64,000 bases of DNA from Sipunculus nudus (Eukaryota; Annelida; Sipuncula; Golfingiida; Sipunculidae). The position numbers and the translations under genes were made by a program. Positions 8,129 to 38,200 of the stretch are shown in pieces. The stretch lies in NCBI GenBank assembly GCA_026874595.1, contig CM049317.1, positions 11,752,382 to 11,816,381 of the forward strand, read 5' to 3'. The notes beneath the pieces are model-generated. The model was not told the origin of the DNA. It saw only the letters and a list, made by a program, of their open reading frames with translations, and did not search any database. Every line of letters begins with the position of its first letter. The stretch's first letter is position 1.

Positions 8129-8333
8129 AAAGAAAATACACAGTATTTTCTCGATACATCGTATCGTTCTATCTCACAGGGTCCAGCTAAACATATTTAC
8201 ATATAGCAATACATAGCAATACATAAGGGTCATGTAACAAGATGTCATTAGTACATGCCCACGGTCCATGACACAGGGCAAAATCCTGTACATGTTTAGA
8301 CTTAACTGGCTAAACATTATAGCTCATTACATC

Positions 8334-9705: not shown

Positions 9706-9808
9706 GTCGGCATTTACCTGAACATCTCGCTCAGTCTGGCGGCGCGCATACGACGGTAACGACATGTGGGCATCCTCATCAATCCCTTCTGGGTTTAACT
9801 CTCCGAAC

Positions 9809-11640: not shown

Positions 11641-11699
11641 GTTTATCACTCACAACCAGAACTAAATATCCGTCCTCAATTCTAAATGGACTATCATTT

Positions 11700-12170
11700 C
11701 TAGCCTCTCTTGCTAGCCTCCAATACGGCGCTAAAGACTGATCCTCCTCCTGCGCCTTCAAAAAATTCGGCCGGACTCACATCGGCAACTTGGCTTGCAA
11801 CATTCAAGCTACGCGTCGGTATCTGTTTCTCACGTGCAGCGCGCCGTGTCTCCACCGCGGACGACACCTCCTTTTGTGACTCTACAACGTCACACACTAT
11901 GCCTGAGGACCGCTCAGACTTCCACGTAGGGTCGGGATCATACGGATCACGCGCTCCCGCTACGTTACCTAGCGCTAAATAACATACAGCATCCCCGACC
12001 ACCATTGCCTCGATAGTACCGACAAAGTACGCACAGTCCACAATAATCCTAGCCGTAGGAAATTGTCTTACAGACCCGTCGAACAACCTACACTCGACCT
12101 GGTGTCCGGTGAACTGATTCGGCCCGACTTACGACTCACGTATTCCTGCCGAGGAACATCCCGAATCCCG
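11700..12170 (-). pseudogene. Retropepsin-like protease of the Gmr1-like element
   Basis: The N-terminal part, at the end of the gag frame near 12150, has LRDSGCSSAG, a DSG-type aspartic protease active site. A stop at 12129 separates it from a second frame (12086-11700) with the substrate-flap region and an ALGNVAGARD motif typical of proteases in this lineage. The enzyme would process gag-pol. The part following the protease fold is rich in Glu, Ser and Arg and is probably linker. The gap between the two frames makes it a pseudogene. Confidence 0.7.
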
Positions 12171-12960
12171 CAGCGCCCTCGCTGACTTACCATTCACCAG
12201 CCCTTCACACACAGGTAACGAGTTTCCGCCTTCTGTCTGGGCAGCAAATCCAAACGACTGACTCGGACTCTCTACTTCCGGTTTCACCGCACCGACTGTC
12301 TCCGTTTCCGCCTCGACTACTGCCATTGACATAGTGTCAGGCTTCTGTTTTGGGTTATACGGGGGGCTAAAATTAGTCCTATACCTCTGCTGATCGCCAG
12401 CAGCACGCCCTACTTGAGGGGAAGACCTAGGCCTCGAACGGGCACTAGTCTTACATTCCTGCGCCTTATGTCCCAGTTCATTACATAAGTAACATCTGAT
12501 GCCTCCTGATGGCTTAAATGTCTGACCGCCCGTCCCTAGCGCCTTACCCCGCAGTAACGGACTCAGGTGTAACGCCCAATTCTCCCTATCATAGTCTTGA
12601 CATACAGTTAACCGTTCAAATCGCTCAAGAAACGCATCAAGCTGATCGTGAGCCTCATCAAAAGGTGGAAGCTGGATTTTCGGGAATACATCCGTACTTC
12701 TCTCTTCTTTAACCCCAGAGTCAGACTTTAACCTTAGAACCTCTAATTCGTGGGCTCTAGCCTCTCGCTCGCGCACTTATTCCCGCTGTTCACTCTCTAT
12801 TTCACGTTGCCTAGCTCTTTTCTCACGTTCCTCATCCGCACGTCGTCTAGTCTCAACATAATCTTGTAAAGCCTGGTCCTTAAGTCCCAAGGCCTGTCCG
12901 CATCTAACAAGTGACTCGAACGACTCAATGGTAACGCTCTAACCTAGTAAGATTCAAGTA
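12129..12960 (-). pseudogene. Gag of the Gmr1-like element, internally deleted
   Basis: The start is a charged coiled-coil stretch rich in Arg and Glu, interrupted by a TAA just upstream of 12776. The capsid-like region begins with IQLPPFDEAHDQLDAFLERF and continues to LLRGKAL. It then jumps directly to the linker and a zinc knuckle (CYLCNELGHKAQEC). The rest of the capsid domain, of the order of 150 residues in comparable proteins such as the gag at 18901-20223, is missing without loss of frame. Gag forms the particle and packages RNA; this one could bind RNA but is unlikely to assemble. Confidence 0.75.
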
Positions 12961-13625
12961 TCTAGTAATATCCGCTCTTAAAAATCCGTAAATATGTACT
13001 GTTAAAGCCAACCTAACGAACCGGCGGTATCCGTACAATTGCACTACGGTAGCTCTACGCATCAAAATCTACTTATACGGACGGACGGACGGAAGGTCGG
13101 ACGAAGGGTCAGACGGATGGACGGATGGATAACAAGATATCAATAAACATCATGCATCTATGATTACCATGCTAATCGGGAGGGTCAAACTTACCTGCCA
13201 AGAGACCCTACCACGTGACCAATCACAAACCAGTGTAGAAAAAATTATACCAGGGCGTATCCAACAACATCAAAAATTTTCACTCTAATCTGGGTTTATA
13301 TTAAGTAATGATGTTCAGGTATCACTGTTCTAGCATTACTCACAAAACATGCATGTGTTCTAGCCAAATCTACAAGGTATATGCTATTCCTGAAACATTG
13401 TTGTGCATCAGGTAATATTCTCACTGAATAAATATTAACTCCTAACAGTGGGGTAATTCCATTGTGCAAGTATACGCTATAACATCAGTTGGTGTCATAT
13501 CCAATTATTAATTCAGATCAACTCTAGTTTGAGTATATGAATGTCTGGTTTCAGTACTGTTTTCTCAGTTCAAAATTTCTGAAACTTACTGTAATTAGCC
13601 AGTTTTTATTAAGGCTAATTATATC
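12961..13625 (-). other. 5' leader of the Gmr1-like element
   Basis: This is the untranslated leader between primer-binding site and gag. It has no open frame of note. A (GGAC)n/(GGAT)n microsatellite lies at 13079-13130. Confidence 0.6.
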
Positions 13626-13640
13626 CTGGCAGGCTCGCCA
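13626..13640 (-). other. Primer-binding site of the Gmr1-like element
   Basis: On the minus strand TGGCGAGCCTGCCAG lies five bases downstream of the 5' LTR. It starts with TGG, as expected for pairing with the CCA end of a tRNA. The tRNA was not identified. Confidence 0.65.
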
Positions 13641-13645
13641 TTCAA

Positions 13646-14787
13646 TGTCACCCCTGACTTAACGTGATAACTTTACAACGGATATATCCTTTAAAACAAT
13701 AGGATGGGTTTACGCTCGCCACTTGATTTCTCTAATCAAGAAATTAGATCCCGGTCATTACAGGTGACATTTCAATGTTCTTTTAAGGACGTGTATAAAA
13801 ATACCAGACAATCATACACCTAGATCAATAGAAACTATGAGCCATCAGGTTAAATTCACAAATATAATTCAAGACAATACATACAGAGACAAAGATGTGT
13901 GTGTGTGCGTGCGTTGATGTGTCAATACGACCGTCCTTCACATTAAAAATACAGGATATTTACTGAGTCCAGGTTTGTATAAAAACAATAAAGTCCAGTT
14001 CCTTCAGAGATCTCTGGTTACTGTTTTGGGTAGAATCTAGCGTATGGTTAGTACCATATAGTCTTTCTGAGTTTAGAGATCTTCAACTGATCTTGCTTGA
14101 CAGCGACCCGGGTAGGTTTACGTTCACAAGAATGGTAATAGCTCTCGTTGTTTACATATGAGCTTAGTGTCCTTGACCTTACTCATGTAGCAATTGTTTC
14201 ACGGCTTACAGCGATTATGTATCTAGGTCAAGCTGAACTTGGCCGGCAGGTGACGCGTGCGCACTTACTTTACCGCCAATACGAAGCTCTGTCGGCAGCA
14301 CGGCTGTGTTCTCGTGGGCTGGGCCCTTGCCTCATGTAGAAGCTTGCTTCTATGCCGTTCCTGGCGGGTTTAAGCGTTTCAATGTTCTTTCTGCAGTGCG
14401 TGCGTGCTGCCTCTTCAAGCTTCAAGACCCAACTCCCGCAGCGTCCCGCGTCTCTCCCTGAACTCTGACGTCACAATCGCCTGTGCACTGTGTACGGCGA
14501 TCCGGTTCTCTGATTGGCTTATGGCTCAAGTGTCCCATATAAGGATATTTGTGATCTAGTATGACTGCTAGCGTCACCATGGCGACCCATATACCAGACG
14601 TAATACACGCAATGCGTGACACAGATAAATCAGCTGATAGCCGATGGGATTTCATACAAGAATACACAATATATATACAATCAAGACATGTCAACGCTTT
14701 AGGATGCAACTCACGTCAAAATCAAAAGAGAACAGACTTCGTTAAACTATGATACAAAACACCGTACATATTGTCACCGATTTTCTG
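13646..14787 (-). repeat. 5' LTR of the Gmr1-like element
   Basis: This 1142-bp copy is longer than the 3' LTR by one 42-bp block at about 13687-13728. Its outermost bases differ from the 3' copy (CTGGTGACA instead of CTGTCA on the plus strand), so the outer end was altered after insertion. Confidence 0.85.
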
Positions 14788-15296
14788 GTGACAATATATA
14801 TATATTTCTTTTTTTACGGTTCTCTTTCAAACGACAAATCTGACTGGCCGAACCATAACACAAAACCTCAGATACATATTCTCATATTAACACAACAAGA
14901 GTTTAAGTGCAAAAATAGAGCTCTATTAATATACAATAACAAGTAATCAAAGAGTTAACATATAACTAATACTAATGAAAGAACGTCTTTCGAAATGGCT
15001 GCAACAAAATAAATACTAAACTGTAGTGCAAATGTTAAACTGAAGATTCCCTGGTCCATAATAACACAAGGAGGTATGCGAATATAAATAAAAAGTCCTT
15101 CCTCTTCACAAATAACAGTCCATGGTTTCCTATGGGGAGGAAGACCCACAAATAAAGGATCTCCGTATCCCCGGGGTTGACAAGTCCACAAGAGTCCACA
15201 AAAGAGCGAGTCCCGTGGCAGGGACAAAATAACAGTTGGTTATCCAGCGGACGACCTTCTAAACAGTAGGGGGCGATACAGAAGAACAGTACGGGT
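14788..15296. other. Spacer between two retroelements
   Basis: There is no coding signal. The right half (about 15160-15296) is GC-richer and may be part of the LTR of the next element, but I cannot match it to a second copy. Confidence 0.45.
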
Positions 15297-15659: not shown

Positions 15660-16077
15660 AATAATAGGTTAAATTCTGACAGAGCTAAGCTTCATCTTAC
15701 CAGTCTCTGATTATAATTCTTCACCTTATGAAGGAGCGTGATTAGATTATGATCAGTATAAACAGTGATATGGTAAGGTGTAGAGCTTAGGTATACTTCA
15801 AAGTTCTGTAACGCCATCAGTAATGCAAGAGTTTCCTTCTCAATAGTGGAATAATTCTTTTGACGAGAGAGGAATTTATTCGAGTAGTAATAAACTGGAT
15901 GACCGTTGTCAAGGTCATCTTCTTGAAAAACACAGCGCCTACACCATGATTGCTGGCATCTGTAAGGAGTGAGAATGGTTTGTCGAAATTTCGAGACAGT
16001 AATACAGGTGCACTTTGTAATATTGCCTTGTCAAAACCACATTGACATTTTTCATCCCTGTGAAATTTTTTGTTCTT
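15660..16077 (-). pseudogene. RNase H remnant of the second element
   Basis: Minus-strand frames downstream of the RT carry pieces resembling a Ty3/gypsy RNase H: a nucleotide-binding start with TDASNHGVGAVF, a KETLALL-like stretch and a TDHNL-like stretch. They are split among frames by indels and stops. Position and order after RT support the call; no continuous frame remains. Confidence 0.55.
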
Positions 16078-16795
16078 TTACAATTTGTCTGTTAGTGGAC
16101 CAGCTACCTCTGCAAAATTCTGACAAAATTTTCTGTAATAACCAGACATTCCTAAGGATCGCATCAGTTCCTTACGGTAAGTAGGAACTGGAAATTCTAC
16201 AACAGCAGACACCAGACTGCTGGTATTTATTTTTACACAACCTTGACCTACCTCGTGCCCTAAATATGTTACTTTGGCACGACAAAAGTCACTCTTGGTC
16301 AGGTTAACTGTTAACCTAGCTTTATCTAACAGACTTTGTTTATGGTCTTCCCATGTCTGGTTGTACACAATTACATCATCAATATAACAACTGTAGTTTT
16401 CTAATCCAGACAATACACAGTTCATTAATCTCATAAAGCAAGATGGTGCATTTTCATTCCGAAGGGCATGAATTGTATTGGTATAAACCATTTGGTGTTA
16501 CAAAAGCGGTTATTTGTTTAGCCCGTCCAGTAAGAGGCACCTGCCAATAGATTTTCAACAAATCAAATTTGCTAATATATGTAGCAGATCAAATCCTATC
16601 AATACAGCCTTCTACTCTAGGCAAAGTATAAGTATCTGTTCTTGTTACATCGTTAAGCTTTCGGTAATCCGTACAAAACCTGTAAGTCATATCAGGTTTC
16701 TTGACCAACAGACATAGGGAACTCCAAACACTACTACTATTCTCAGTGATATAAATCTCCATCATATACTGGATTTCTTTATTAATAGTATGCAA
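16078..16795 (-). pseudogene. Reverse transcriptase of the second element
   Basis: Two frames (16795-16589 and 16491-16078) hold RT motifs in order: the fingers with FCTDYRKLNDV, the palm with CYIDDVIVY (catalytic YIDD), then YLGHEVGQG and GYYRKFCQNFAEVAGPL. The region between the frames is shifted. Catalytic aspartates persist, but the enzyme is interrupted at least twice. It lies downstream of integrase, as in the neighbouring element. Confidence 0.8.
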
Positions 16796-17024
16796 CTTTT
16801 GGGGACCTGCCCTTTATGGTTCCTGTTTAATGGGGGAGTTCTCCCACGTCTACATCATGTTATAGTACGTTTGGTCTACTGGGGACATCCGGAAATAGAG
16901 AGGCACAATTTAGAATGATTTCTTTTAACTGTGAGAACTGGTTGAAATCCAAATGTGAAAATTTCCGATCCAAACTATTCAAAACACAATGAGTCATTAA
17001 GTTTTATGGAGTGTTCAGTTTTGT

Positions 17025-18255
17025 TCATGAAAAATATTTTTGTACCAAATTCGTGTGGGGATTAGGTGGAGATACTTTCAACATGTTTATATGACAGAGT
17101 TGTTGGGACTTCCTGCGATCAGCATGATATTCATCCAACATGTTTATATGACAGAGTTGTTGATATTCATCCAACATGTTTATATGACAGAGTTGTTGAT
17201 ATTCATCCAATATGTTAATATGACAGAGTTGTTGGGACTTCCTGCGATCAGGAGTATCAATCACATAGTTCAAATCAGATCTCTTTTCTACTACTTTATA
17301 TGGACCTGAATATTTGGCTTGCAGGGGTTGCCCTGGAATTGGAAATAATGCCAAAACTTTATCTCCTGGTTGGAACTCTCGTTTAGTGGTCTTTTTTGTC
17401 ATACCGCACTTTCCTTTTATTTTGAGAATTCTTTAGTGTTCTTGGGCCATTTCATTTGTTCTAAGTAATTTATCCTTAAAATCTTGAACATATTTTAGCA
17501 GACTGTTCTGACTACTCTGTCCCAACCACATATCTTCAGTACCGCCAGGGGGCCTCTCACGCAGTTCCCATACACCTATTCAAAGGACTAAACCCTAGGC
17601 TTTCTTGTACAGCTTCTCTGGCTGCAAATATCAAAAAGGGTAAACCCTCATCCCATTGGTTTTCAGTATCAAGACAATAAGCTCTAATCATGTTTTTGAG
17701 GGTTTGATGAAATCGCTCTAGAGCCCCTTGACTCTCAGGATGGTATGCACTGGATATGTAATGTTTTATACCTAATTCTGCCATGACCTGAGCAAATATA
17801 TTTGACATGAAATTTGAACCCTGGTCAGTTTGTATGGTTTTAGGTATTCCAAAAGTGGTAAAAAATTTAATAAGAGCTTCAACAATTTACTTTCCTGATA
17901 TTGTTCTGAGAGGAATGGCCTGTGGAAATCTGGTTGCTACACATATGATAATTAATATATATTCATTACCATGTTTAGTTTTCCGTGGTGGTCCAACACA
18001 ATCTAATATTACTGGCTCGAACGCATCATGTGTAGCTGGTATGGGTAAGAGTTGGGCAGGACTAACTTGGTGGGCTGGTTTACCAATCACTTGACACACG
18101 TGACATATTTTGCAATATTTAGCCACGTCGTGCGCAAGTTTTAATATTCCTGGGCGATATTCAGGGGGAACCACAATATGATAAATTGTTTCCCATGTTT
18201 CATTAGCCGGAATGGCGGGAGGTCTGTATTTCCTAACCAACACATCGTTATGCAA
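17025..18255 (-). pseudogene. Integrase of the second element
   Basis: The first frame (18255-17887) has a CKICHVCQ zinc-binding half and VILDCVGP with the first core Asp. The second (17808-17557) holds the third core residue in a GALERFHQTLK motif. The third (17402-17025) is the C-terminal domain (GDKVLALFP, then LCHINML). The part with the second Asp lies in the gap near 17810-17880 and is frame-disrupted. The C-terminal domain is lengthened by an in-frame minisatellite. Confidence 0.75.
17075..17240 (-). repeat. In-frame 36-bp minisatellite in integrase C-terminus
   Basis: The unit encoding QQLCHINMLDEY is repeated about four times, with a longer flanking unit (ADRRKSQQLCHINML). The 36-bp period keeps the frame. 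It probably arose by slippage on a coding sequence. Confidence 0.85.
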
Positions 18256-21759: not shown

Positions 21760-22772
21760 CCTTAGGCTGATGGGCTATTGTCGTCACCCAAGCTGTCCGT
21801 CCGTCCGTCCGTCCGGCGTCCGTTAACTTTTACTTTGTGAGCGGAATATCTTGAAAAGGATTCACCGTCAGAATTTAATTTCCTCGGTAAAGATGTATAT
21901 CGACAAAATCTCGGTCAAGTTCGAAGATGGGTGACCTTGACCTATTTTTCTACATTTTAGAGCTGATTATAGAAAAGCACTTAGATGGTTATTACTCAGG
22001 AACCATCTAGTGGATTTTCACAAAACTTACTATGATTATTGGGACTAATAGTTTGTACCTGCTACACAAGTTTGGTGGTGCCACCTAGAATTTCTGATTT
22101 TTAATAAATTTTTATCCGATTTTTCAACTTTGGGCTTGTGAGCGGCATATCTCTAAAAGGATTCGCCATAGGAATTTTATTTTTTCGGTGCAGATGTATA
22201 TTGACAAAATTTCGGTCAAGTTCGAGATGGGTGACCTTGATCTATTTTTCTGCGTTTTAGAGCTGATTATACTAAAACATTTCGAAAGTTTTTTTTCTCA
22301 AGAACCATTGGGTGGATTTTCACAATACTTACTATGATTATAGGGACTGATGGTCGTAACTGCTGCACAAGTTCGGGGGCGCCATCTGTAATTTCTGATT
22401 TTTTATGAATTTTTCTTGGATTTTTCAACTTTAGCCTTGTGAGCGGGATATCTCTAAAAGGATTCACAAAAGGAATTTTATTTCTTTGGTGAAGATGTAT
22501 ATCGACAAAATTTCGGTCAAGTTCGAAGATTGTTGACCTTGGCCTACTTTTCAGGGTCACAGAGCTTGAAATAGAATAAAACTTAGAAGCAGGAAGCAAT
22601 TGATGGATTGTTATGAATCATGGTACATACCTCTCCATTTTAAATTTATAACTGAGACATGTGCAGATATACATCCATGTGGGAACAGATATTTAGTACT
22701 TGTTACTGTTACCACCTCTAAACACTGTTCTTTTGGCTGAGGGCTTTTGTCAGCTTCTGCTGATATTCTAGT
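21760..22772. repeat. Three-unit tandem repeat, ~301 bp per unit
   Basis: TTGTGAGCGG recurs at about 21834, 22136 and 22437, and the following ~300 bp align unit by unit (AAAAGGATTC, TTTCGGTCAAGTTCGA, GTGACCTTG, TGGATTTTCACA). A (GTCC)n run sits near the left end. The outer ends have related GGCTGATGGGC and GGCTGAGGGC sequences. It appears to be a non-coding repeat family with an internal tandem structure. Confidence 0.85.
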
Positions 22773-25501: not shown

Positions 25502-25505
25502 ATAT
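25502..25505. other. Target-site duplication, left copy
   Basis: ATAT precedes the 5' LTR and recurs at 35265-35268 after the 3' LTR. One base is ambiguous: AATAT is also possible if the LTR ends one base earlier. Confidence 0.65.
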
Positions 25506-25728
25506 TGTAGTAGATTTGCATTACTCCAAGAATTTGGCATTGATGGCTGTGTTTTGGTGGTCCCGGATGATCAACTGACGCATGCGCAGAAGACCCGACG
25601 TTCAATGGAAGACAAGAAACCCTATTATTTGAGAAGACTTTATCCGCAGATATCTCAGGTTCATTCTGCCATCGGACCTTGACGGTAAGCCAGATTGTTG
25701 CTTACCTATGTAAGTGCAAACACTTACA
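25506..25728 (+). repeat. 5' LTR of the TatD-bearing element
   Basis: It starts TGTAGTAGATTTGC and ends CACTTACA, 223 bp long. It matches 35044-35264 except for a 3-bp insertion (AAG in TTTGAGAAGAC), one further 1-bp indel and a few substitutions. It is short for a Ty3/gypsy LTR. Confidence 0.9.
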
Positions 25729-25730
25729 TC

Positions 25731-25745
25731 TGGCGACGAATAAAC
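25731..25745 (+). other. Primer-binding site of the TatD-bearing element
   Basis: TGGCGACGAATAAAC begins two bases after the 5' LTR. The TGG start suits pairing with a tRNA 3' end; the tRNA was not identified. Confidence 0.6.
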
Positions 25746-26652
25746 CGGTTGCTAGCGTAATATTTGCTAGTCCTCGGTGGAGAAATTTCACTGGGAATTT
25801 CATGATTCCTGGTGAGCTCAGATCTCACTTGATCACCTCGGATTTTCTCTTCCGAGATTAATACCTTACCCTTGCCCCTTCGTCATATGGTAATATTTGT
25901 ATTGACGAATCTTACCACGTTTATGAATCGAGTTGTCATTTATTCCTCGCTTCGGGATTACTGAAGTTGTGGTGGCGCGCTCTGTCATTATCGCCCAGGC
26001 GCGACTGACGTTGCATGGACGTATTTCCTGATCACTGAGATCAGCTGTGTTTTCAACCTATTATCGCCCAGCCCCGTTGACGCCTATTTCTGGCTTATTA
26101 CTGGTGTCCATCAATCAGTCATAAGCAGTGTTGACAGTCTTTCCGTCTTTTTAACGGATTGTTGACATTGTTATTTGTTTTTCACAGCTGACAATCAGTT
26201 TATTCCAAATTTTTGTTGGCAAACATTTGTCAGTGTCCTAGCTGGCTATGTTTATATTCTGACAATTTGTTTACAGTCAGATAAGTTATCAGAAATTTTA
26301 TCGGATTTATTTTTTCACAAATTTTGATTAAACTTGCCTGATTTCATGCCAGTATATTTATTATTGACTCCTTAATCATCAAAACAGAGCTTGCCACTAC
26401 CTTGATCTTGATATAATATATAATAGTTTATATTATATATTTGCTATATTATTCAAAATTCTACCGCCGCTTTGCATATTGCTTTGCCTTTTATATTAGA
26501 CCTATTAGCTGTTATTAAGAATTTTCTCTCATTCTGCTCATATTATTCTGCTGCTTGCATTAATATTTGGTTTCATCCCCCCCCAAAAGAAAAAAAAAAA
26601 ATTTCAAATAAAATAAAAATACAAATAAACTTGCCGTGATCAGGTACCAAGA
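25746..26652 (+). other. 5' leader of the TatD-bearing element
   Basis: An untranslated leader of about 0.9 kb. Its 3' part contains a C run followed by an A-rich stretch (26577-26630). No frame of note occurs here. Confidence 0.6.
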
Positions 26653-28986
26653 ATGGCAAAAATGCCACTCAACCTGCGCACCGTGACTGTTAAGGAATTA
26701 TCCTCTGCATTCCCTTCGCTGATCAATATGGATAATGTTCAACAATTCATATCACTTAGACAAGCCACTCCTGGCTTTGACATTTCCCAGCTAGCACAGG
26801 CTACTGGCACACAGGACAGCGCTTGGCAGGAGCTGCTAAATGATGACAAGGTAACATTACCTGAGTACTTGGACCCACATGTGACATCTGTGGATGGTGA
26901 ACAGTTCAGCGAAAATCAAGCCAGATCCCGCCATCGCCAAGGGGAAATTACTGAAAACACTACCCCCCTCTCCAGACATATATCACACAAGCGGGATGCC
27001 CCTTTGCCCCATTCTGATCCTGCCATACAACAGGTGATTACTGGAAATAGCTCAGCCTTTAGACGGGGAATTTATCATAAACCTGACTGTGTGGAACCAA
27101 GTCCAGCAGCTACCTTGCCATATGGCTATTCTGATGATGAAGGTCAAGGTCATCACAGTGCGTTCCGACGGCCTATGAAGGACCATGCTCACAACCCAGG
27201 CCCCCTAAAATCTCAAACATTCACCGGTAAATATGATCGAGAAGGCTCATCCATGGATTCGCACTGGGAGAGGGACAGGCCACACACAAAGGGAATTAAA
27301 CTTGCCCCGGGTCAACAGCACAAAACATCCCAGACCCAGCGGTCCAGATACACAAGCAGTCAACTTAGACCAGAGGGCCAGTCTAGTCAGGGACCCCCCA
27401 GTGACTTGTCTCATTCGCTGCATCCGCGCGAATTTGACCACAGACAACGATATGATCACGAACACACTGAACCCCCTACCAGTTGTGCAAGGCCATCTGA
27501 CCCTGACTACTATAGTTGTGATCCAGGATCTTACCCTGACCGCCAAACCAGTGGCAATGTGAAAAATAAAAGAGTACATAGATCTCATGGCAGCTCAGTT
27601 GAGCGGAATGATTCGGCTGGTCAGACGCGTGGATACAGGCGGCATGGCCATCCATCCCGTGATCAACAGGACCCAGAACAGCCTGGTAAAAGGGACCGAG
27701 GCACCAACCAACATGGCCGCAGAGGTAGGCCAAAGGATTTTGGCCCGGAATACCGCCATATCCGTACCCCAAAACATCGCGATTCTAGTAGTAGTTCTGG
27801 CGGGAGCAATGTCGGCTGCCACTCCTATAGGAGTCGAAAGCTATCCAGTAGCCCACAAGAATCAGACTCAAGTGGTTGTAGGAGGAGACATAGGGGGCGC
27901 CACCATACATCGAGGTCGAGCAGCAGCTCATCCAGTTCTAGTGCATCGGACTACAGACCCCGTAATGCGAAAAAACACTCACGCAGGCGTCGACAAAGTC
28001 CGCTTTCCCCCAAGCTAGCTATGTTCAGTGGTGACGGAACCTGGAAGGCCTTTCTTTTCCAATTTGAGAGATATGCCTCTCGCTATGGATGGTCATCCAT
28101 CAAGAAGGCAGATAGGTTGGTGGACTGCCTTTCTGGCAAAGCCTTGGAGTTTGTAAGAAAGCTTAGTATTGAGCACGACTACAAACTCCTAAAACGGAAA
28201 CTGGGAAAGAGATTTGGGATCGAGGAAGACCCCATTACTGTAAGGAGGGCCCTGCAATTTGTTAAACAGAGGGAAGGAGAAACTCTCGAGGAGTTCAGCC
28301 AAAGGGTCCTGTTTCTGGTCATGGATGGTCTACCAGGTGCCAAAGAAAGTACTATCGAGCAGATAGCGGTTGAACATTTTTTGAGGGGCTGTTCTGATAA
28401 AAACGCAGCAGCCTCTGCAATGGACAAAAACCCACATAGTATAAACACTGCATTGAAGCACGTGAGCAGCTACATCAACAATAGTCGTGTGATATTTGGT
28501 AAACCCACTCACGCAGCAAGGCACGTACATTTTGTCCAGAATCCTTCTGACATATCTGACAATGAACTGGAGGTGAAAGCAGCTCAATTCAGGCCCTTCA
28601 AACCACGAAATTTCAACCAGCAATCACGACAAGGGACCTCAAGGAGCAAAGAGTCAGAGGTGACACCATCCGCCTCACCACAAAAATTTCCTGACGCTGC
28701 TTTAGCAGAGAAGAGATACCAGCAACAACAACAAAATAACTCTGAGATTTTACAGAAAGTTTCTGTAATGGAAGAGAAACTGGAGATCCTGTTTCGAGAT
28801 AGGCAGACAGGACCCCCCAAACGAGCCCAAACGCCACCTCCAGGCACAAATGCAGCCACTGCTGTCTGCTACAACTGTCAGCAAAAAGGACATTTTGCAC
28901 GAGATTGCCCAGAAAAAAAGACCATAAGTCCTCCCCAGCCAGGGAAAATACAGGGAAACAACAAGAGCGATTCTGATTTAAACTAG
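26653..28986 (+). CDS. Gag polyprotein of the TatD-bearing element
   Basis: A single open frame of 777 codons. Residues 1-90 form a predicted small helical domain (VKELSSAFPSLINMDNVQQF and following) faintly like a helix-hairpin-helix; that similarity is speculative. Residues 90-455 are very rich in Arg, Ser, His, Asp and Pro, including SR-type runs. A retrotransposon gag capsid domain starts near residue 457 (MFSGDGTWKAFLFQFERYAS) and runs to about 620. A Gln-rich stretch follows, then a CCHC zinc knuckle (C739, C742, H747, C752). The ~450-residue extension before the capsid domain is unusual. The frame is intact, so particle and RNA-binding functions may persist. Confidence 0.9.
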   Translation: MAKMPLNLRTVTVKELSSAFPSLINMDNVQQFISLRQATPGFDISQLAQATGTQDSAWQELLNDDKVTLPEYLDPHVTSVDGEQFSENQARSRHRQGEITENTTPLSRHISHKRDAPLPHSDPAIQQVITGNSSAFRRGIYHKPDCVEPSPAATLPYGYSDDEGQGHHSAFRRPMKDHAHNPGPLKSQTFTGKYDREGSSMDSHWERDRPHTKGIKLAPGQQHKTSQTQRSRYTSSQLRPEGQSSQGPPSDLSHSLHPREFDHRQRYDHEHTEPPTSCARPSDPDYYSCDPGSYPDRQTSGNVKNKRVHRSHGSSVERNDSAGQTRGYRRHGHPSRDQQDPEQPGKRDRGTNQHGRRGRPKDFGPEYRHIRTPKHRDSSSSSGGSNVGCHSYRSRKLSSSPQESDSSGCRRRHRGRHHTSRSSSSSSSSSASDYRPRNAKKHSRRRRQSPLSPKLAMFSGDGTWKAFLFQFERYASRYGWSSIKKADRLVDCLSGKALEFVRKLSIEHDYKLLKRKLGKRFGIEEDPITVRRALQFVKQREGETLEEFSQRVLFLVMDGLPGAKESTIEQIAVEHFLRGCSDKNAAASAMDKNPHSINTALKHVSSYINNSRVIFGKPTHAARHVHFVQNPSDISDNELEVKAAQFRPFKPRNFNQQSRQGTSRSKESEVTPSASPQKFPDAALAEKRYQQQQQNNSEILQKVSVMEEKLEILFRDRQTGPPKRAQTPPPGTNAATAVCYNCQQKGHFARDCPEKKTISPPQPGKIQGNNKSDSDLN

Positions 28987-28994
28987 GACTAGTC

Positions 28995-29660
28995 GTGTCA
29001 GGTGGCCGTGGCACGACAAATTCATTAGGTCACACCCCATTAGCACATAAGTTCATTGTTAGCTCGGAGCCCAAGGTAGCCACTACAACATCAATTGGGT
29101 CTCACGGAACTGCAGAGGAGACACCTGACAATTTTGCGGGAAGTTATACCACAGTAGCGCAATCAGTCGTTGACTCACACTTGGGAAGCTTACCAAAGGA
29201 TGCCAATGTTTATGCAAACAAGTGCAAGGGCTTAAGTCTTACAGTTCCGGTCACCATCAACAATCTGGATACAGTTGCTACAGTGGATAGCGCAGCACAA
29301 GTCACTATTGTCAAAATAGATTTGCTCCGGGATCTTGTTGACTCCAGTTCAAAAATAGTTACCCTATAGGGGATAGGAAAAAAAGACTCGACTATCCCAG
29401 CATTCCGGGTTAACAATGTGGAAATAGGCCTAGGTAAAACAAAGTACTTGTGGGATGTCTACGCTGCTGACATCAGCGATTCAGTACTATTGGGATTGGA
29501 CTTCCTCGTCGGTCAACAATGCAAAATAGACCTGAATGCTTTGGTAGGTCCTGTCGTGTTTATGAAGTTGCAACCTGCGCCAAAGTCCGTATTCCGCCCG
29601 CATCGCTTACTCCCGTTTCAGTCAAAATCATTGATCCAGGTGGAGATCAGGAGTACGTGA
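28995..29660 (+). pseudogene. Retropepsin region of the TatD-bearing element
   Basis: This follows gag in a different frame. A retropepsin-like segment is visible with VATVDSAAQVTIV, where DSA stands at the expected D-(S/T)-G active site, and a later SVLLGLDFLVGQQCKIDL stretch typical of the end of the fold. An in-frame TAG lies at 29367-29369, and the frame is lost again near 29575. The DSA variant could be functional or degenerate. The enzyme would cleave gag-pol. Confidence 0.65.
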
Positions 29661-30199
29661 TTGAACTACAGGACAGTCTCAAAGGGTTGTTACCGGCCAA
29701 TGCGGTGATCAACAATAATGGGCTAATAGATGTACTGAATGACACCAATCACAGCGTGAATCTGAAGTCACAAGCCCGTATAGGTACAGCAGTCGAAGTT
29801 GACCAAGTGATTGGGACCATTACCAAACAAGCAGTTTCGGATGAGAACTTAGCAATAAGGGCCATGGCAGCTGGCGTAATCACAAATTCCAAGAATGATG
29901 ACACCCTGAGTAGCTCGTATTTGAGGGAATCGCAATCCCTGTGTGAAATGGAACAACTGCTGCCCGATCATTTGCATGCACTCTTTGGAGACTGTAAAGG
30001 CAAACATTCGGAGAAACATCTTAAGACCGTATGCGAATTACTTTTAGAGTATTCAGATATCTTCGCTAGCCATGTTCTTGACCTAGGCCGCCTCCAAGGT
30101 GTTAAACATACCATCGATACTGGCTCTGCACCTCCTGTCAAGCAAAGAATGCGCCGTACACCTCTTGGATTTGAGAACGAAGAGAGAGAGAGCATTTAG
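29519..30199 (+). pseudogene. Protease-RT linker and RT N-terminus
   Basis: This frame continues from the protease after a shift near 29575. It contains a long linker, then LLEYSDIFA and a stretch ending KQRMRRTPLGFENEERES, which is the usual entry into a Ty3/gypsy RT. It stops at 30199 because the (AG)n run at 30178-30192 puts the following RT sequence in another frame. A small change in repeat number would explain the break. Confidence 0.75.
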
Positions 30200-30204
30200 A
30201 CAAA

Positions 30205-33120
30205 ATGCTAACAGCAGGGGTCATTCAACCATCATCCTCCCAATGGGCATCTGCTCCTGTGCTTGTAAGAAAAAAAGATGGAACAGTCAGATGGTGCATC
30301 GACTACAGGCAGCTGAATGAAAAGACTGTACAAGATCAGTACCCACTGCCAATCATTGAAGATTGTCTTGACATGCTGGCAGGTACTCAGTTTTTCAGTT
30401 GCTTAGATCTAGCCTCGGGCTATTATCAGATAGAGCTGGAAGAGAGTTCGAAGAAGAAAACCGCGTTTATCACCCGCTACGGTCTGTTCGAGCATGCCAG
30501 GATGGGCTTCGGCCTCTGTAACGCACACGTACAAGGCTATGCCAAGTTAACAGCTGATCTCTACTCCTTGGTTAAGCCGAAGGCAGCCTTTGTTTGGAGT
30601 CAATCGCATGACGAGACTTTTCAGCTCCTGAAAGAAACTCTCGTGTCTGCTCCTCGCTTGGCCTTTCCCCTCCCATCTGGACAGTTCATCCTCGACTGTG
30701 ATGCATCGGAAAAGGCAATTGGCGCAGAACTGGTACAGGTACAAGATGGCATCGAAAGAGTGATCTCATTTGCTAGTTTTGTTTTGCTGCCGTCTCAAAG
30801 GAAGTACTGCACAACCCGGAAAGAGCTCTTGGCTGTGGTCCGCTTCTGTCGCCACTACCGACATTATCTATTAGGAAGACCTTTCTTGATTCGCAGCGAC
30901 CATAACAGCCTTGCTTGGTTAGCACGGTTTCGCTTTGTGGAAGGTCAGCTAGCTAAATGGCTGGAAGAGATGGGACAATATGACTTCAAGATTCTGCATC
31001 GTCCCGGCGTGAAACATTCCAATGCAGATGCCCTGTCACGCATCCCAGACCATTTACAGAGCTGTAACTGCTATGAGGCGGGTGTAAATCTAGCTGATTT
31101 GCCATGTGGAGGTTGCAAGTACTGCACCCGAGCCAGCCAACAGTGGGAGAGGTTCGGGTTGGATGTAGACGACGTAGTGCCCATTGCCATGAGATTGACC
31201 CAGGTGGCCGACACATCTCACGCCGCTCAATCGGCTAAGCTGGCGAGTGGTGGAGATGTTCTTGACACTGGAGCAACAGGTCTGCCAGTACCAAAACCGG
31301 AGAGCTTGGCTCAGTCGGCAAAGCTGGAGGGCCATGATCCTGATGGGGACGGTACTGGTTTGGACCAAAGAAATTTCAAAGTTTTCAAAGTGCCAACTAC
31401 TGAAACTTCAGACCATGACATAGATCCGGATTCAACGGAAGAGCCAGACTCCGAGTCTGACAAGAAAGATGATAGGCAGTTTGACCTGCACATTAATTGG
31501 ACAAGTTCTTACTCTGGGAGCGAAATTGCGGAGTGCCAAAATCAGGATCCAGACATTCAGTCCATCTTTCGGTGGTTAAACGAGGAAGAACCAACACAGG
31601 CAGAATGGCAGCTCTCGAGTCCTGGTACCAGAGCACAATGGACTTCTCGGAAGCAACTATGTGTAAAAGACAAGGTTCTGTACTACAATTGGGAAGACCC
31701 TCATTTGCCTCGCTTACTGCTTGTATTGCCAGGATCATTGAAAAACGAAATCTTAGAACTGGCACACAGTACAAAGACGGCAGGCCACCTTGGCAGAGAT
31801 AAAACAGTAGATCGGCTAAAACAGAGCTTTTATTGGCATCAGATGACCAGAGATGCCGACCTATTTGTCAAGTCTTGTACAACCTGTAACAAGAACAAAA
31901 AGAAGTCTGGGAAAATGAAAGCTCGGCTAAAGTCGTTTCATGCAGGATTCCCCATGGAGAGGGTTCACCTAGACATATTGGGACCCTTTTCACCAAGTGA
32001 GGCTCACAACAAGTACATCCTGATGATTACAGACCAGTTCACAAAATGGGTGGAATGTGTCCCCATTCCAGAACAGAGTGCTGAAACAGTCGCGGAGAAG
32101 TTCTTTGTCAACTTTGTCTCCACCTTCGGGTGTCCAATTACCATACACACGGACCAAGGAGCAAACTTTGAATCCAGTCTGTTCAAAGAATTCTGTAAAT
32201 TGATGGATATAGCTAAGTCTCGTACCACGCCATACCATCCGGCCTCTAACGGTCAAGTGGAGCGCCAAAACAGAACGCTAATGCAAATGAATAGATGCTA
32301 TATCCAGGATAATGTGAAGGACTGGGATAAAGATCTACCCATCCTCAGCATGGCCCTCAGATCAAAGGTCAACCGTGCCACAGGACACTCCGCTAATATG
32401 GCGATGCTTGGCAGAGAAGTGTTTCAGCCGATAGATGTACTGTTGGGCACAATCAAAGAGAAGGTACAGCCCACCACTGTCAGTCAGTGGGTCTCAGATC
32501 TGGTGAAACGGCTAGGAGATATTCACCAGCATGTAAGAACTAAACTTAAGAGTCAACAAGCCTCCCAGAGCCGACAGTATGATCAGAATGTCAATGAAAC
32601 TACCTATCAACAAGGAGATCTGGTATACCAACTGGATAAGTCTGTTAGGAAGGGGGTCAGCCCAAAGCTACGCCCAATATGGAAAGGGTCATACCTGATC
32701 ATCAAGGAAAGACACCCGATCTATCTTGTCCGGTCAAGGAAAAGATATAAGTATATCCATCATGATAACCTGAAACCTTGCACAGATGGATGCATCCCCT
32801 TATGGCTTAGGAGAGCCAGGAACAAGTATTTCAAGGGGGAGGATGCTCTTGACCAGGATCTGGGGAGTCAAACAAACGGCCAAGCTGGGGTTGACTCTCC
32901 TGTCCTGGATTGGGACGCGTTCTCATCCTTAGAGAACCAAGATGGTGTTGACACAACAGATAAAAAACCAGAATCTAGCAACACCAAACCTGTAGCACCA
33001 GATGGACCTGAAGGATTAAACCCCAACCAGTATGGTGATAAGTTCCAGACCAAGACAAGGAGGGGAAGGACAATAAAACGTCCAGGGCGGTTCCAAGACT
33101 ACTCGCTGGATTCGCCATAA
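30205..33120 (+). CDS. Pol of the TatD-bearing element: truncated RT, RNase H, integrase
   Basis: This open frame of 971 codons starts inside RT (motifs SQWASAPVLVRKKDGT, CIDYRQLN, SCLDLASGYYQIEL, then MGFGLCNA). It then jumps at about 30525 to GYAKLTADLYSL, near the end of the RT thumb. About 100 residues, including the YxDD loop, are missing, yet the frame is kept. RNase H follows with CDASEKAIG (D166), TRKELLAV and RSDHNSLAW. A ~170-residue acidic linker separates it from integrase. Integrase has an HHCC domain (HSTKTAGH, CTTC) and a D590, D650, E686 triad with 35 residues between the last two. The C-terminus has GDLVYQLDKS. RT must be dead; integrase and RNase H could be active. Confidence 0.85.
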   Translation: MLTAGVIQPSSSQWASAPVLVRKKDGTVRWCIDYRQLNEKTVQDQYPLPIIEDCLDMLAGTQFFSCLDLASGYYQIELEESSKKKTAFITRYGLFEHARMGFGLCNAHVQGYAKLTADLYSLVKPKAAFVWSQSHDETFQLLKETLVSAPRLAFPLPSGQFILDCDASEKAIGAELVQVQDGIERVISFASFVLLPSQRKYCTTRKELLAVVRFCRHYRHYLLGRPFLIRSDHNSLAWLARFRFVEGQLAKWLEEMGQYDFKILHRPGVKHSNADALSRIPDHLQSCNCYEAGVNLADLPCGGCKYCTRASQQWERFGLDVDDVVPIAMRLTQVADTSHAAQSAKLASGGDVLDTGATGLPVPKPESLAQSAKLEGHDPDGDGTGLDQRNFKVFKVPTTETSDHDIDPDSTEEPDSESDKKDDRQFDLHINWTSSYSGSEIAECQNQDPDIQSIFRWLNEEEPTQAEWQLSSPGTRAQWTSRKQLCVKDKVLYYNWEDPHLPRLLLVLPGSLKNEILELAHSTKTAGHLGRDKTVDRLKQSFYWHQMTRDADLFVKSCTTCNKNKKKSGKMKARLKSFHAGFPMERVHLDILGPFSPSEAHNKYILMITDQFTKWVECVPIPEQSAETVAEKFFVNFVSTFGCPITIHTDQGANFESSLFKEFCKLMDIAKSRTTPYHPASNGQVERQNRTLMQMNRCYIQDNVKDWDKDLPILSMALRSKVNRATGHSANMAMLGREVFQPIDVLLGTIKEKVQPTTVSQWVSDLVKRLGDIHQHVRTKLKSQQASQSRQYDQNVNETTYQQGDLVYQLDKSVRKGVSPKLRPIWKGSYLIIKERHPIYLVRSRKRYKYIHHDNLKPCTDGCIPLWLRRARNKYFKGEDALDQDLGSQTNGQAGVDSPVLDWDAFSSLENQDGVDTTDKKPESSNTKPVAPDGPEGLNPNQYGDKFQTKTRRGRTIKRPGRFQDYSLDSP

Positions 33121-33204
33121 ATTAGTTACAAGTCCCTACTCATCTAGTTAAGTAGGGTAAGTTTAAGAAACAAAGGAAAAGCATAAACGTTATTTTTTTA
33201 TTTT

Positions 33205-33885
33205 TTGCAGGATTGCACGTTCGCAACAAAACAAAAAAAAAAAAACAGAAAAGAAAATATATGTATATACATAAAAGAATATAAAGAAAAAAGAACAAGG
33301 ATTATAGTTAAAATGGAGGTTTATGATGAATCCCAGTTCTGCCCAGACTATGAGGAGGACATGATGGCAGAACTTCCCCCTGTAACCCTCGCTTCAGCTA
33401 AGAAAATGAAAAAGAAGCGCAGACAAGTTGTTGTTTGTCCTATCTGTCAAGCTCAGGACTCACACATGAGGCGACATGTTGTCAAGACACATCTGCCCTG
33501 GTGGTTCCAGCTAGGGACATCATGCTGGGCCTGCCATGTCCAGGAGGGCCATGCATCTTTCCTAAGGAAACATGATGATCATGATCTGGGCCAGCAAAGT
33601 AATCAGTGGGAAATGGGCTGCAAGGAGCTTATCACAACACTCCAACAGTTGCACAGTAAACCTTCCTTGCAGGCCCTTCTGGAGTTTGCGGTGTGTGAGG
33701 GCATTCACACAGCAAAGGGGTTTTCGCCTGAAGAGCAAGTCAGTTTGAAGACCATGTCTGCCACCCATGGATGGGAGAGCCCCAGTGCACCCATTTTAGC
33801 AAACCCGCCTAACTGCGTAGCAGGTTTACTTCATTGGGAGACTCTAGCATTGCTAACCGAAAGTTATTGTGGAAAATTTCCCTGA
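33205..33885 (+). CDS. Accessory zinc-finger ORF of the TatD-bearing element
   Basis: The likely start is the ATG at 33313, giving 190 residues; the frame is open from 33205. An acidic N-terminus is followed by a Lys/Arg cluster (KKMKKKRRQ) that could be a nuclear signal, then two zinc-finger-like motifs: CPIC followed by RRHVVKTH, and CWAC followed by RKHDDHD. The C-terminal half is helical and unrecognised. The frame ends at 33885 with CCC-TGA and overlaps the TatD frame, which lies in +1 and has no ATG before the conserved start. The two may be one fused protein split by a frameshift, or joined by programmed +1 frameshifting. The position matches that of env in other elements, but there is no signal peptide or membrane segment. 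Confidence 0.75.
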   Translation: MQDCTFATKQKKKNRKENICIYIKEYKEKRTRIIVKMEVYDESQFCPDYEEDMMAELPPVTLASAKKMKKKRRQVVVCPICQAQDSHMRRHVVKTHLPWWFQLGTSCWACHVQEGHASFLRKHDDHDLGQQSNQWEMGCKELITTLQQLHSKPSLQALLEFAVCEGIHTAKGFSPEEQVSLKTMSATHGWESPSAPILANPPNCVAGLLHWETLALLTESYCGKFP

Positions 33886-34687
33886 GTTTGAGCCGTTTTC
33901 TGCACCAATATTAATTGACACCCATGCACACATAGACATGTTACTATGTCGTTCCCATGTTGAAAGCCTGCCTTCATTTGAATCGCGCGCCAGCTCCGGC
34001 CTTAACATCTCCGGGATTGTGGCTAACTTCGTTTACCCGGAACATTGGCCAGATCACCTTAACATCAAGAAAGATATACGTGTTAAATGTTCCTTCGGGA
34101 TACATCCTCGGCTCCTTAAGGATGTTTCCCATACAGAAGGCTACATCGCAAGGTTGACCCAAATGCTAAGATTCCCGTACTGTATTGCCATTGGTGAAGT
34201 TGGCCTCGACTGGTACCAGTCCTCAGTTGCAGACCGCTTTGTTCAACACAAGTTCCTAGAGAGGCCGTTTGAGGTAATGAAGAACTTTCCCAGTACGGTT
34301 CTGATACTGCACCGCCGGGATAAAGGTGATGGGTCCGCCGCCAAACAAGTACTGTCGCTACTCCAGGACAAACAGCTACAAAGCCACAATATCCATCGAC
34401 ATTGTTTTACTGGTGATGTGATTGAAGCCACTGCCTGGTTAGCCACCCTGCCAAACTGTTATTTTGGGATCACCACGGTTCTATTCAAGGCAGAACAACT
34501 TAGGTCGGCTGTGCAAACCATTCCGCTGGAGAGACTCCTCATCGAATCAGATTGTCCTTACTTGTCACCATCACCATGGGACATCCTTCCCATCGCTGCG
34601 GAGTTAAGCAAGCTGAAGCAGGTCCCACTGGCCTTCCTTGTGCAGCAGCTGAACAGCAATGCTGCTCGGCTGTATGGCTCATTCTAA
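33869..34687 (+). CDS. TatD-family metallo-deoxyribonuclease carried by the retrotransposon
   Basis: The frame is 272 codons counted from 33869, with no ATG before the first conserved block. TatD motifs occur in order: DTHAHID (H19, H21), FGIHP, AIGEVGLDWY (E110), ILHRRD (H148), HRHCFTGD (H178) and LLIESDCPYLSP (D228), with a helical end containing SNAARLYG. These are the two-metal ligands of the TIM-barrel TatD nuclease family, all retained, and the length is normal for the family. TatD enzymes are Mg-dependent DNases with 3' exonuclease activity, known in DNA repair and apoptosis. It lies between integrase and the 3' LTR. Family identity is well supported; its role in the element is inference. 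Confidence 0.88.
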   Translation: MENFPEFEPFSAPILIDTHAHIDMLLCRSHVESLPSFESRASSGLNISGIVANFVYPEHWPDHLNIKKDIRVKCSFGIHPRLLKDVSHTEGYIARLTQMLRFPYCIAIGEVGLDWYQSSVADRFVQHKFLERPFEVMKNFPSTVLILHRRDKGDGSAAKQVLSLLQDKQLQSHNIHRHCFTGDVIEATAWLATLPNCYFGITTVLFKAEQLRSAVQTIPLERLLIESDCPYLSPSPWDILPIAAELSKLKQVPLAFLVQQLNSNAARLYGSF

Positions 34688-35030
34688 CGGGGAGGGTGCT
34701 TGCATGCAACTAACAGCGACCTCGGTCCAGTCGGCCAAGCTGGAGGACCAAGGCTACTGTTTCCTTTACTTCTCCTGGATTATTGCTTATACATTACTAA
34801 CCAGGGGGGTTCTAAGCTTTATTGGTCAATATATGTAGAACTAAGAGTTTCTCAAATTTGCTGTTTCAACATGTTCATTATTTTTATTATATTCGTTGGT
34901 GTGTAGGATGTTCAGGAACAAGGCTTGTAGGTCGGTCCTATATTAATTGGATCTATAAGACTATTTGTATACCTTTGCTTTATTGTTGAAATGTATATCA
35001 GTCTTGTCCATCACGGGGGCTTGTGCTTCA
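34688..35030 (+). other. 3' untranslated region of the TatD-bearing element
   Basis: This lies between the TatD stop and the polypurine tract. It holds a third copy of a ~20-bp motif (CAGTCGGCCAAGCTGGAGG at about 34728) also present at 31229 and 31311 within pol. No frame is supported. Confidence 0.6.
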
Positions 35031-35043
35031 AGCAGGGGAGGAA
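35031..35043 (+). other. Polypurine tract of the TatD-bearing element
   Basis: AGCAGGGGAGGAA abuts the TG of the 3' LTR, as expected for plus-strand priming. Confidence 0.75.
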
Positions 35044-35264
35044 TGTAGTAGATTTGCATTACTCCAAGAATTGGGCATTGATGGCTGTGTTTTGGTGGTC
35101 CCGGATGATCAACTGACGCATGCGGAGAAGACCCGACGTTCAATGGAAGACAAGAAACCCTATTATTTGAGACTTTATCCGCAGATATCTCAGGTTCATT
35201 CTGCCATCGGACCTTGACGGTAAGCCAGATTGTTGCTTACCTATGTAAGTGCAAAACGCTTACA
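35044..35264 (+). repeat. 3' LTR of the TatD-bearing element
   Basis: A 221-bp direct copy of 25506-25728 ending GCTTACA. ATAT follows immediately and matches the bases before the 5' LTR. Confidence 0.9.
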
Positions 35265-38200
35265 ATATCTTGTTCGTACCTTTTTTCTCGGTGGATTTGA
35301 CAACCAGAGCTAATTTAGATGAAAATTTTCTTATCTGCAACTGTGAAAAGTGATGGTTAACTCATCATGAGCCCAAAATTAACAATGTATATTGGAAAAC
35401 AGAAAATGTAATATCTCTAGTACCAGTTATGCTAGAAAGACAAAAAATGTCTTTCTGACTAACTTTGGTATGACATATTTACTAAAGTAGTTATTGTAGG
35501 GTTCCAGAATGATCCTAATCCTTACACTCAAAATGACCATCTACGCCATCTTGAGAAAACCTTCAAAATGTAATTTTCCTGCAACCAAATATGTTGGAAA
35601 GATAAGGGAGGTGTCATTTTCGACACACGCTTTCATGACAAGCTCAGTAAAACAGTTATTGTAGAATTTTGGGATTATTCTCACCTATAAATTCAAATAT
35701 TAGAACTAGATGAATTAGGAGAATGAATTAAGGATCACTGTCGACAAACTGTTGGGTAAAATATCCATCTAAATTTTTATAGGTAAGCTTCGGGAACATT
35801 TATCCAAAAGGACCTGTGACGCCATTTTGTGAAACAGAAAAAAAATATATGTTATTACGACATGATGTAGAAATACAGAAGAGGTGGCATTGTCCTGCAA
35901 CTCTGTCGTGGCAAGTCAAATGGTTGTTTAAGAGATACAAGAGGTGTTTTAGCGTGTCATTCTAATATAATTAGACGAACAAATGTTATAACATTAGATG
36001 CTTATCCGTACAAACATAGGTCAGCATCAAACCTGAGACGTTTGCTTTCTCTCTGGAAAAATCAGAAAAGTCTTTATAAGGGAAATGTTATAGAAATATC
36101 ACCAAACCAGGAACATAATGGAATCAAATAAAACTCATTAGAAATATTACCCTATTGAATATCTCACAAAGATCGATTCCAGGCAAATATATAGATTTGG
36201 TTTCTAATACATTTTTGGGAACTATAAGATATTCCATTAACATTTCTTATTATATTATTGTGTATTGTATATTATCTATAAGCTTTTAAAATATCAAAGA
36301 AATCAGGTGGGCATTTTGCCAACATCCCCGAATTCAATATAGCATACGAAAAATACAATATCAAAGAACAACTTTCTTTTATCAACATCTGCTTAATGTG
36401 CCCAAGTTTTCCTATGGAACGAAACTCTACTTAAACTCCATTCTTTCATTTATAAACGGTAAGTGTCACGATAAAAGCGAGATGATTGAATTTCAGATTT
36501 TCGTTTACCACTGACACGATCGTTATATCGATTTTTCTCAGTTTCCAGAAAAAAATGTCCTTCCCGTACCTGAAAAAGATTCTCTAAACATCCGTGGCTG
36601 AGTCACGGGGATTTACATTTCAACAATTAGTGATTTTTTTTCTGCGCCCATTTCGGTCTTTCTTTCAACCCTTTATCCTTTATCCTTAGTTGCAGTATTA
36701 TTTTAACTAATTTTACCATTATTGACACAGAAGGTTTGCTCACTTGCTAATAATTGAAAATTTCCCTGAAGATTTGTGTGTCCTTGTGTGATTTGTCTGA
36801 CTGAATCTTTTTTTTTTTCACGCAGTGAGTGGTCGTTTCATAACTTGTAGTCTTTGGTCTGGGTGATTTTCGACATACTGAGAATATGTAAATATATTTA
36901 ACATGTAACGTATTTCTGCTTTTAATCTATCGATTGTGCGATAATCCCATCCTTTTCCAGGAACCTTCTTGACCATCCGTCTGCCTCATCAGGCCTCTTC
37001 CTTGAAAGTTCTAAGTGGTCGAATTTTCATGCGTACTAGAAACAATAATTTATATTTCCAAATTTTGGACTGAACTAATCCTCAATGCAAATTAAAAAAA
37101 ACGAGAACCTTGACACCAAGAAAGGTTAAGACTGAAGTTAATTTACATATGCCAACAGACGAATGGCCTGCATGACGAGAGACAAAAGATAATAACTTTA
37201 TACATTAAATCAGCCGAGCTCAAATATAAACACAAAACTGAAGAATGTCTTAAACCAGAGAAAACATCAATTTAAGGACATCTTCTCCACACAGGAAAAA
37301 AAAAAACCCTACTGATTATTTCGTATAACGCATTTTGCACTTCTGTGATAGAATATACTATTCTTCAAAATATTTTGATGCCTGCTTTTATAGGTTTATG
37401 CATAACTTCGTCGATTAACCATTCGTCGACCAGATTAAAATGTTGATCTGGACCTGAGATACATTAGCTGAAACTAGGCGGAGTGAAAGACACTAAATAA
37501 AAGCAGAACGGTTTTATGATTTTTACAGGGTACTATAATAACATTTGTTTCAAATTTTTGATATTTATTGAAACGAGCGTCTTATTGGTTATTGTAATTT
37601 ATGATATTTTTGCATTCAGATTATTTAACTGTGTCATGTTCCCAAGAAAGATCTTTTATTATTACCTGAATCAACCATCGCGTTGATATAATCTCCCTTC
37701 AGAGCGGTTTTGCTAAGTTTTGTATCTTGCATGCATTTTTTATCATTCAGAGTATTATGCTTTTGTCTTTTTCGGGGCTCATTTCACCAGTTCCACTACA
37801 AAAATTCACACAATATACCCAGTATATATAAAATATGAATATATAGAATCCGTTAGTATAATCTTTACTTCCTGGCCTTTTATTTGTTTACATTAACATC
37901 AGTGCTTTGTATTTTTCTTCTTAGGAAATTATCATACAGTTTAAGCTATATATATATATTAATATTAATATTATAATAAATATTAATCCTTAGTATTTAG
38001 TGCAGATCAACTGCGTTTTTTTAAATGTTATCCAGTCACATGTAAAATTCCACGATCATTTAATTTAATTTAATATTAATTTCTAATTATCTTTCTTTTT
38101 TGTATAATTATGAAACTTTGCAATTTCCCTGTCCTAATTCATGTCACTATATTTTGTATCTTATTATTGTTCCTTCCACTCTTTTCATTTTGAATTCTTT

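Follow-up and report, generated by a model that had tools for sequence, protein, structure and literature searches.

To our knowledge, few enzyme genes beyond gag and pol are known in long terminal repeat (LTR) retrotransposons. The chromodomain and a DnaQ-like 3'-5' exonuclease are well-known extra domains of these elements (PMC6338049, in the part of the paper at hand). In the bdelloid rotifer LTR elements Juno and Vesta, a gene for a DEDDy exonuclease or a GDSL esterase forms the third open reading frame (ORF3); the invariant residues are reportedly intact, some of these enzymes carry a Cys-His-Cys motif, their evolution within genomes shows no significant departure from neutrality, and their role was left open by the authors (Rodriguez et al. 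2017, PMC5408684, in the sections at hand). The third gene after pol in Drosophila Ty3/gypsy elements is env, which encodes a cell-entry protein (PMC5408687, likewise in part). Here, we describe a Ty3/gypsy element in a 64,000-nt stretch of the Sipunculus nudus genome (hereafter, the window), in which the same position is occupied not by env but by a TatD nuclease gene with zinc fingers (zf-TatD). Its closest precedent is the DEDDy-exonuclease ORF3s of bdelloid LTR elements. As in Juno and Vesta, an enzyme gene, of which one kind there is a 3'-5' exonuclease, serves as the ORF3 of an LTR element; unlike in Juno and Vesta, the fold is a TatD barrel rather than DEDDy and is joined to a tandem zinc-finger module, none being described in the sections of PMC5408684 at hand. 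The word TatD is absent from the text of that paper. Among the published papers searched (Repbase and preprints lay outside the scope), no TatD gene in a retrotransposon and nothing on TatD with transposable elements in bivalves was found, and none of the listed literature matches for TatD and transposons concerned, by title, eukaryotic mobile elements. In a squid Hox figure, TATDN2 serves to label a gene (PMC6962438, in part), a paper on retrocopies (PMC5408686) contains the word TatD once, and the available portions of PMC12440569, PMC10294476 and PMC8220671 yielded nothing on TatD. An enzyme as ORF3 of an LTR element is already known; the zf-TatD type is unreported in the literature searched.

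The element spans positions 25506-35264 on the forward strand (9,759 bp) and is bounded by LTRs that begin with TG and end with CA, with an ATAT duplication on either side, which identifies it as an LTR retrotransposon. The two LTRs are identical at 217 of 220 aligned bases (4 gap columns; Kimura two-parameter distance 0.0138), and given this near-identity the insertion appears to be fairly recent. In the pol ORF (30205-33120), the Pfam domains follow one another as RVT_1 (residues 21-107), RNase H (131-259), Integrase_H2C2 (509-566) and rve (583-679), i.e., the order of reverse transcriptase (RT), RNase H and integrase that marks Ty3/gypsy elements. The zf-TatD gene follows after an AT-rich gap of 192 bp (GC content 0.25). 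Its ORF at 33869-34687 (+) matches the whole TatD profile PF01026 (143.7 bits, curated cut-off 27, E 8.7e-42, profile positions 1-253 of 253) and carries all six residues of the pattern HxH, E, H, H, D, which we take to be the TatD metal-ligand set. A sequence-only reading of this DNA had described a Ty3/gypsy element with matching 221-223-bp LTRs and an ATAT duplication, and with a TatD enzyme bearing six ligands (H19, H21, E110, H148, H178, D228) between integrase and the 3' LTR, in the env slot; the profile match, the domain order and the LTR pair (223 and 221 bp, ATAT on both sides) bear out this description. The domain also matches 16 distinct sequences of solved structures, the majority labelled as TatD-type. 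In fold and sequence it resembles Staphylococcus aureus TatD (2gzx, 6l25), Escherichia coli YcfH (1yix), and human TATDN3 (2y1h) and TATDN1 (2xio); unlike zf-TatD, these solved enzymes match no zinc-finger module, and they share about 17-23% identity with the window model in structural alignments.

The zinc fingers and the TatD domain belong to one gene. The sequence-only reading had placed a short zinc-finger ORF with a basic cluster ahead of TatD; the sequence features stand, but the separate ORF does not, as the relatives span both. In tblastn comparisons, residues 1-190 of the database protein P0001 align to 33313-33870 and residues 192-469 to 33866-34684 in a different frame, and P0002 and P0121 likewise align across both ORFs in differing frames. 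The window must therefore hold one gene with a frame change around 33866-33885, its first part running open until the stop at 33883-33885. Two separate genes are ruled out, since the relatives are single proteins (445-727 aa) that cover two zinc fingers, a helical domain and TatD. The start codon is likely the ATG at 33313, position 33205 being merely the first TTG following a stop. An acidic start with a PDY motif is present in the window, P0121, P0123, P0127 and P0132, and with QDY in P0001 (together 6 of 14 rows, window included), and in all aligned rows that reach the fingers, finger one keeps its Cys2-His2 set and finger two its CxxC.

The sequence-only reading had treated occurrence of the TatD ORF beyond this copy as decisive for its claim, and zf-TatD relatives were indeed found in wider protein databases. 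The nearest are P0001 (469 aa, 49%), P0002 (452 aa) and P0003 (445 aa), all with zinc fingers first and TatD behind, and identity reaches 49-51% at best. A profile search with P0001-P0003 returned 3,938 proteins at E <= 0.001, and relatives were taken from the best 120 of these, among which 18 proteins (P0001-P0004, P0121-P0134) score above a block of vertebrate TATDN2, the nearest named cellular family. For human TATDN2, both exo- and endonuclease activity on RNA is reported, together with the resolution of R-loops (PMC12709183, in the part at hand). Vertebrate TATDN2 resembles zf-TatD in joining a TatD nuclease domain to a long amino-terminal extension, but differs in its own tree group, in its identity to P0001 (25-30%) and in its extension. 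When a profile of the zinc-finger and helical module was run against 356 proteins at E <= 10, it matched 16, i.e., its 14 source rows, P0124 and, weakly, P0004, and no TATDN2 or bacterial TatD was matched. The module is missing from P0131 and P0134 because both are short. In one relative, P0129 (666 aa, representing 21 clustered members), the protein ends in a fused NADAR domain (70 bits against a cut-off of 35). Scans of viral contigs with P0001, the zf-TatD alignment A3, the pol alignment A4, P0122 and P0130 revealed no related element, with one TatD-like match (L001, 27%). Among genome contigs, A3 matched 39 loci at 23-35% identity in the TatD part; all of them carry prokaryotic titles, and none is a related element.

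A tree built from 41 TatD domains places 17 zf-TatD rows on one side of a branch with support 93/87, and 12 vertebrate TATDN2-like rows and 12 bacterial or unnamed TatD rows each group by themselves (100/99 in both cases); the latter two sets were hand-chosen from the listed matches, and the tree does not include P0004 and P0134. The window falls with P0001, P0002, P0003 and P0121 in a five-member clade (100/100) and is split from vertebrate TATDN2 by the 93/87 branch. The wider zf-TatD group is made unsure by the long branches of P0130, P0133, P0126, P0132, P0128 and P0129, none of which belongs to the five-member clade. Of the comparison between element and host TatD that the sequence-only reading had in view, the tree covers the vertebrate TATDN2-like side. 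Origin of the gene as a recent fragment of a host TatD is not favored, as other zf-TatD proteins are nearest (at most 49-51%) and the TATDN2-like and bacterial rows lie outside, in a comparison without the host's own TatD and invertebrate TATDN1-3.

Among the 17 aligned zf-TatD rows, which are 27-51% identical to P0001 and exclude the incomplete relatives P0004 and P0134, H221, E307, H344, H374 and D425 are kept in all, and H219 in 16. The conservation of ligands at such identity favors a working enzyme in the zf-TatD family, as judged at the residue level. It also makes it very improbable that the TatD part is catalytically dead and serves only for nucleic-acid binding or structure, as might be suggested by the loss of H219 in P0133 and of D223 in P0132 and by the variable residue after the third His (C345; the window has R here, P0128 and P0129 have S, and P0133 has Y).

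An association of zf-TatD with pol is also suggested beyond this copy. The best of 947 pol matches is P0237 (964 bits; runner-up, 872), which is sister to the window pol with a Shimodaira-Hasegawa-like approximate likelihood ratio test (SH-aLRT) support of 99 (61 rows, made up of the window and the top 60 of the 120 matches listed). P0237 and the zf-TatD protein P0121 are each found on one contig, and both contigs are 557,787 bp long, the one equal size between 18 zf-TatD and 119 typed pol lengths, each length being that of the longest contig on which the protein occurs (120 of the 947 pol matches listed). The probability of such an exact match by chance is 0.00016 under a rough jitter model (contigs >100 kb, 8 and 28 of them). 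Because of this equality, the two contigs are very probably the same, which would place the closest relative of the window pol on one contig with a zf-TatD from the five-member clade. Taken jointly, we regard it as probable that zf-TatD is a resident ORF3 inherited with Ty3/gypsy pol, made as one protein and acting as an accessory nuclease. It would be the third gene of a Ty3/gypsy lineage, passed on with pol and no chance passenger, and P0121 and P0237 would presumably be neighbors in one element. Extra domains were also seen in pol relatives: P0285 has a Macro domain in front, P0298 has a zf-CW close to its end, and P0275 and P0286 have, close to theirs, a PHD-like finger that scores slightly below the Pfam cut-off.

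Several observations weigh against residence. An equal size of 557,787 bp does not amount to adjacency, as such a contig can hold pol and zf-TatD far apart, and for P0001-P0003 and the distant relatives no pol on an equal-sized contig was found among the best 120 of 947 pol matches. Identity between the window and P0121 (43% in TatD, 34% in the finger part) is lower than between the window pol and P0237 (84% for pol ORF residues 1-107, 51% for the remainder), and for this reason zf-TatD appears to evolve more quickly than pol. The RT of the window copy has no stretch matching P0237 residues 626-737, where the YxDD motif sits, and pol shifts frame relative to P0237 at about 29534-29543 and 30175-30200. 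Among the incomplete relatives, by eye, P0004 ends without the last Asp and P0134 starts without HxH. Finally, the rule by which a candidate splice acceptor was recognized ahead of the gene (14/16 pyrimidines, [CT]AG/G with the slash as the cut, no inner AG) was fixed after the site had been noticed; on the + strand it matches once within the element and three times in the whole window, and dinucleotide shuffles of the element gave 0.165 sites per shuffle, with at least one site in 32 of 200. The window copy thus lacks an intact RT with YxDD. The YxDD region is retained in the relative P0237, and the loss is a defect of one copy that leaves membership in the Ty3/gypsy family unaffected. The copy was either mobilized by helpers or damaged after insertion.

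Full LTR context is seen for one copy only, as would be the case if template switching had brought a zf-TatD gene of host or foreign origin into a single element without the gene becoming a regular part of any lineage. We consider such a chance event improbable in view of the equal-sized contigs of P0121 and the sister pol P0237, the location of zf-TatD directly after pol and before the purine tract, and the acceptor-like site immediately ahead of its ORF. It is also unlikely that zf-TatD constitutes a separate gene family, be it a host family with many copies or the enzyme of a different kind of mobile element, that occasionally lands in LTR elements. Such a family would account for the fusion of P0129 to NADAR and for the wider group P0122-P0134 (13 proteins), which shows no pol linkage among the best 120 of 947 pol matches, and the comparison set holds no invertebrate host TatD genes. 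However, the shared contig size again points to pol; no organism-named protein ranks above the vertebrate TATDN2 block among the matches listed; and no second set of terminal repeats of at least 30 nt surrounds the gene among the repeats listed, which include 25 of 167 inverted pairs and would miss shorter ends. Nested insertion of another element is not favored, on the same absence of terminal repeats among those listed.

Retroviral env is translated from a spliced transcript from which gag and pol are absent. If zf-TatD is a resident gene, it would probably be made as a separate protein in the same manner, from an RNA spliced at the candidate acceptor 33210/33211, which lies 102 bp upstream of the ATG at 33313. 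An RNA without gag and pol would place this ATG near its front, behind one out-of-frame ATG (33261) that lies between acceptor and start. Candidate donors occur within the 5' LTR (Table 1), and a further donor-like GTAAGT lies at 33157. The literature on env splicing in gypsy elements yielded nothing usable. Two A-rich stretches, 26585-26615 before gag and 33229-33259 before the zf-TatD ORF, are alike (77% over 31 nt); the likeness may be accidental, or it may reflect a leader feature common to two genes that are translated separately.

The product would be one protein of about 450-480 aa in which a basic cluster and two zinc fingers are followed by a helical domain and a metal-dependent nuclease of the TatD type. 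The fingers would hold nucleic acid, and the most likely role is that of a nuclear accessory nuclease trimming or clearing nucleic-acid ends during the element life cycle, to the presumed benefit of the element; possible targets may include 3' ends of complementary DNA (cDNA) or RNA, RNA:DNA hybrids and abasic sites. A role in counter-defense or competition, compatible with residence, is a tentative and rather unlikely alternative, in which a released nuclease destroys host sensing targets, small RNAs, or rival RNA or cDNA. Macro and NADAR are ADP-ribose-linked modules met in host-parasite conflict. Their presence in the pol relative P0285 and in P0129, together with the separate ORF in the env slot, which suggests a diffusible protein, would be in line with such a role, but both cases are in distant relatives outside the window clade, and the substrate is purely conjectural. 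It is possible, although doubtful, that zf-TatD represents an old nuclease family specific to mobile elements across many LTR lineages, spliced in the place of env and acting in the nucleus on RNA:DNA hybrids or cDNA ends. Such an old, element-specific family would be a new class of retroelement helper enzyme. With a TatD nuclease that brings zinc fingers along, the env slot would be known to hold two distinct nuclease folds, which would point to a stage of the retroelement life cycle where additional nuclease activity is needed again and again, and some invertebrate TATDN2-like gene predictions could be element genes.

Table 1 Features of the zf-TatD-bearing element, in window coordinates (a slash within a motif marks the cut)
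Feature	Position	Strand	Remarks
5' LTR, 223 bp, TG...CA	25506..25728	+	ATAT upstream at 25502-25505
Candidate splice donor ACG/GTAAGC inside 5' LTR	25685..25690	+	short consensus match only
Second candidate donor TAT/GTAAGT inside 5' LTR	25710	+	short consensus match only
Probable primer-binding site, TGG..., 2 bp past LTR	25731..25748	+	by eye
gag ORF, 777 aa, CCHC zinc knuckle	26653..28986	+
pol: protease and amino-terminal part of RT, frame-broken, >1 frame	29196..30196	+	tblastn with P0237
pol ORF: RT (YxDD region internally lost, junction near 30523-30525), RNase H, integrase	30205..33120	+
Candidate splice acceptor: T-rich tract, then GCAG/G, cut 33210/33211	33186..33210	+	pattern rule
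First zf-TatD gene part: acidic start, basic cluster, two zinc fingers, helical domain	33313..33885	+
Second zf-TatD gene part, different frame: TatD nuclease domain, six metal ligands	33869..34687	+
Probable polypurine tract, purine-rich AGCAGGGGAGGAA, ahead of 3' LTR	35031..35043	+	by eye
3' LTR, 221 bp	35044..35264	+	followed by ATAT at 35265-35268

Other repeats were observed in the window. A second Ty3/gypsy-like element, at about 7016-14793, has minus-strand pol matches that lie between two direct repeats, each about 1.06 kb long (7055-8113 and 13726-14787, 96%), and contains a 642-bp tandem duplication (9808-11089, 98%). More minus-strand pol fragments at 15934-18138 perhaps represent a third Ty3/gypsy element, and a tandem array with a 301-bp unit in 2.4 copies (83% matches) occupies 21835-22552.
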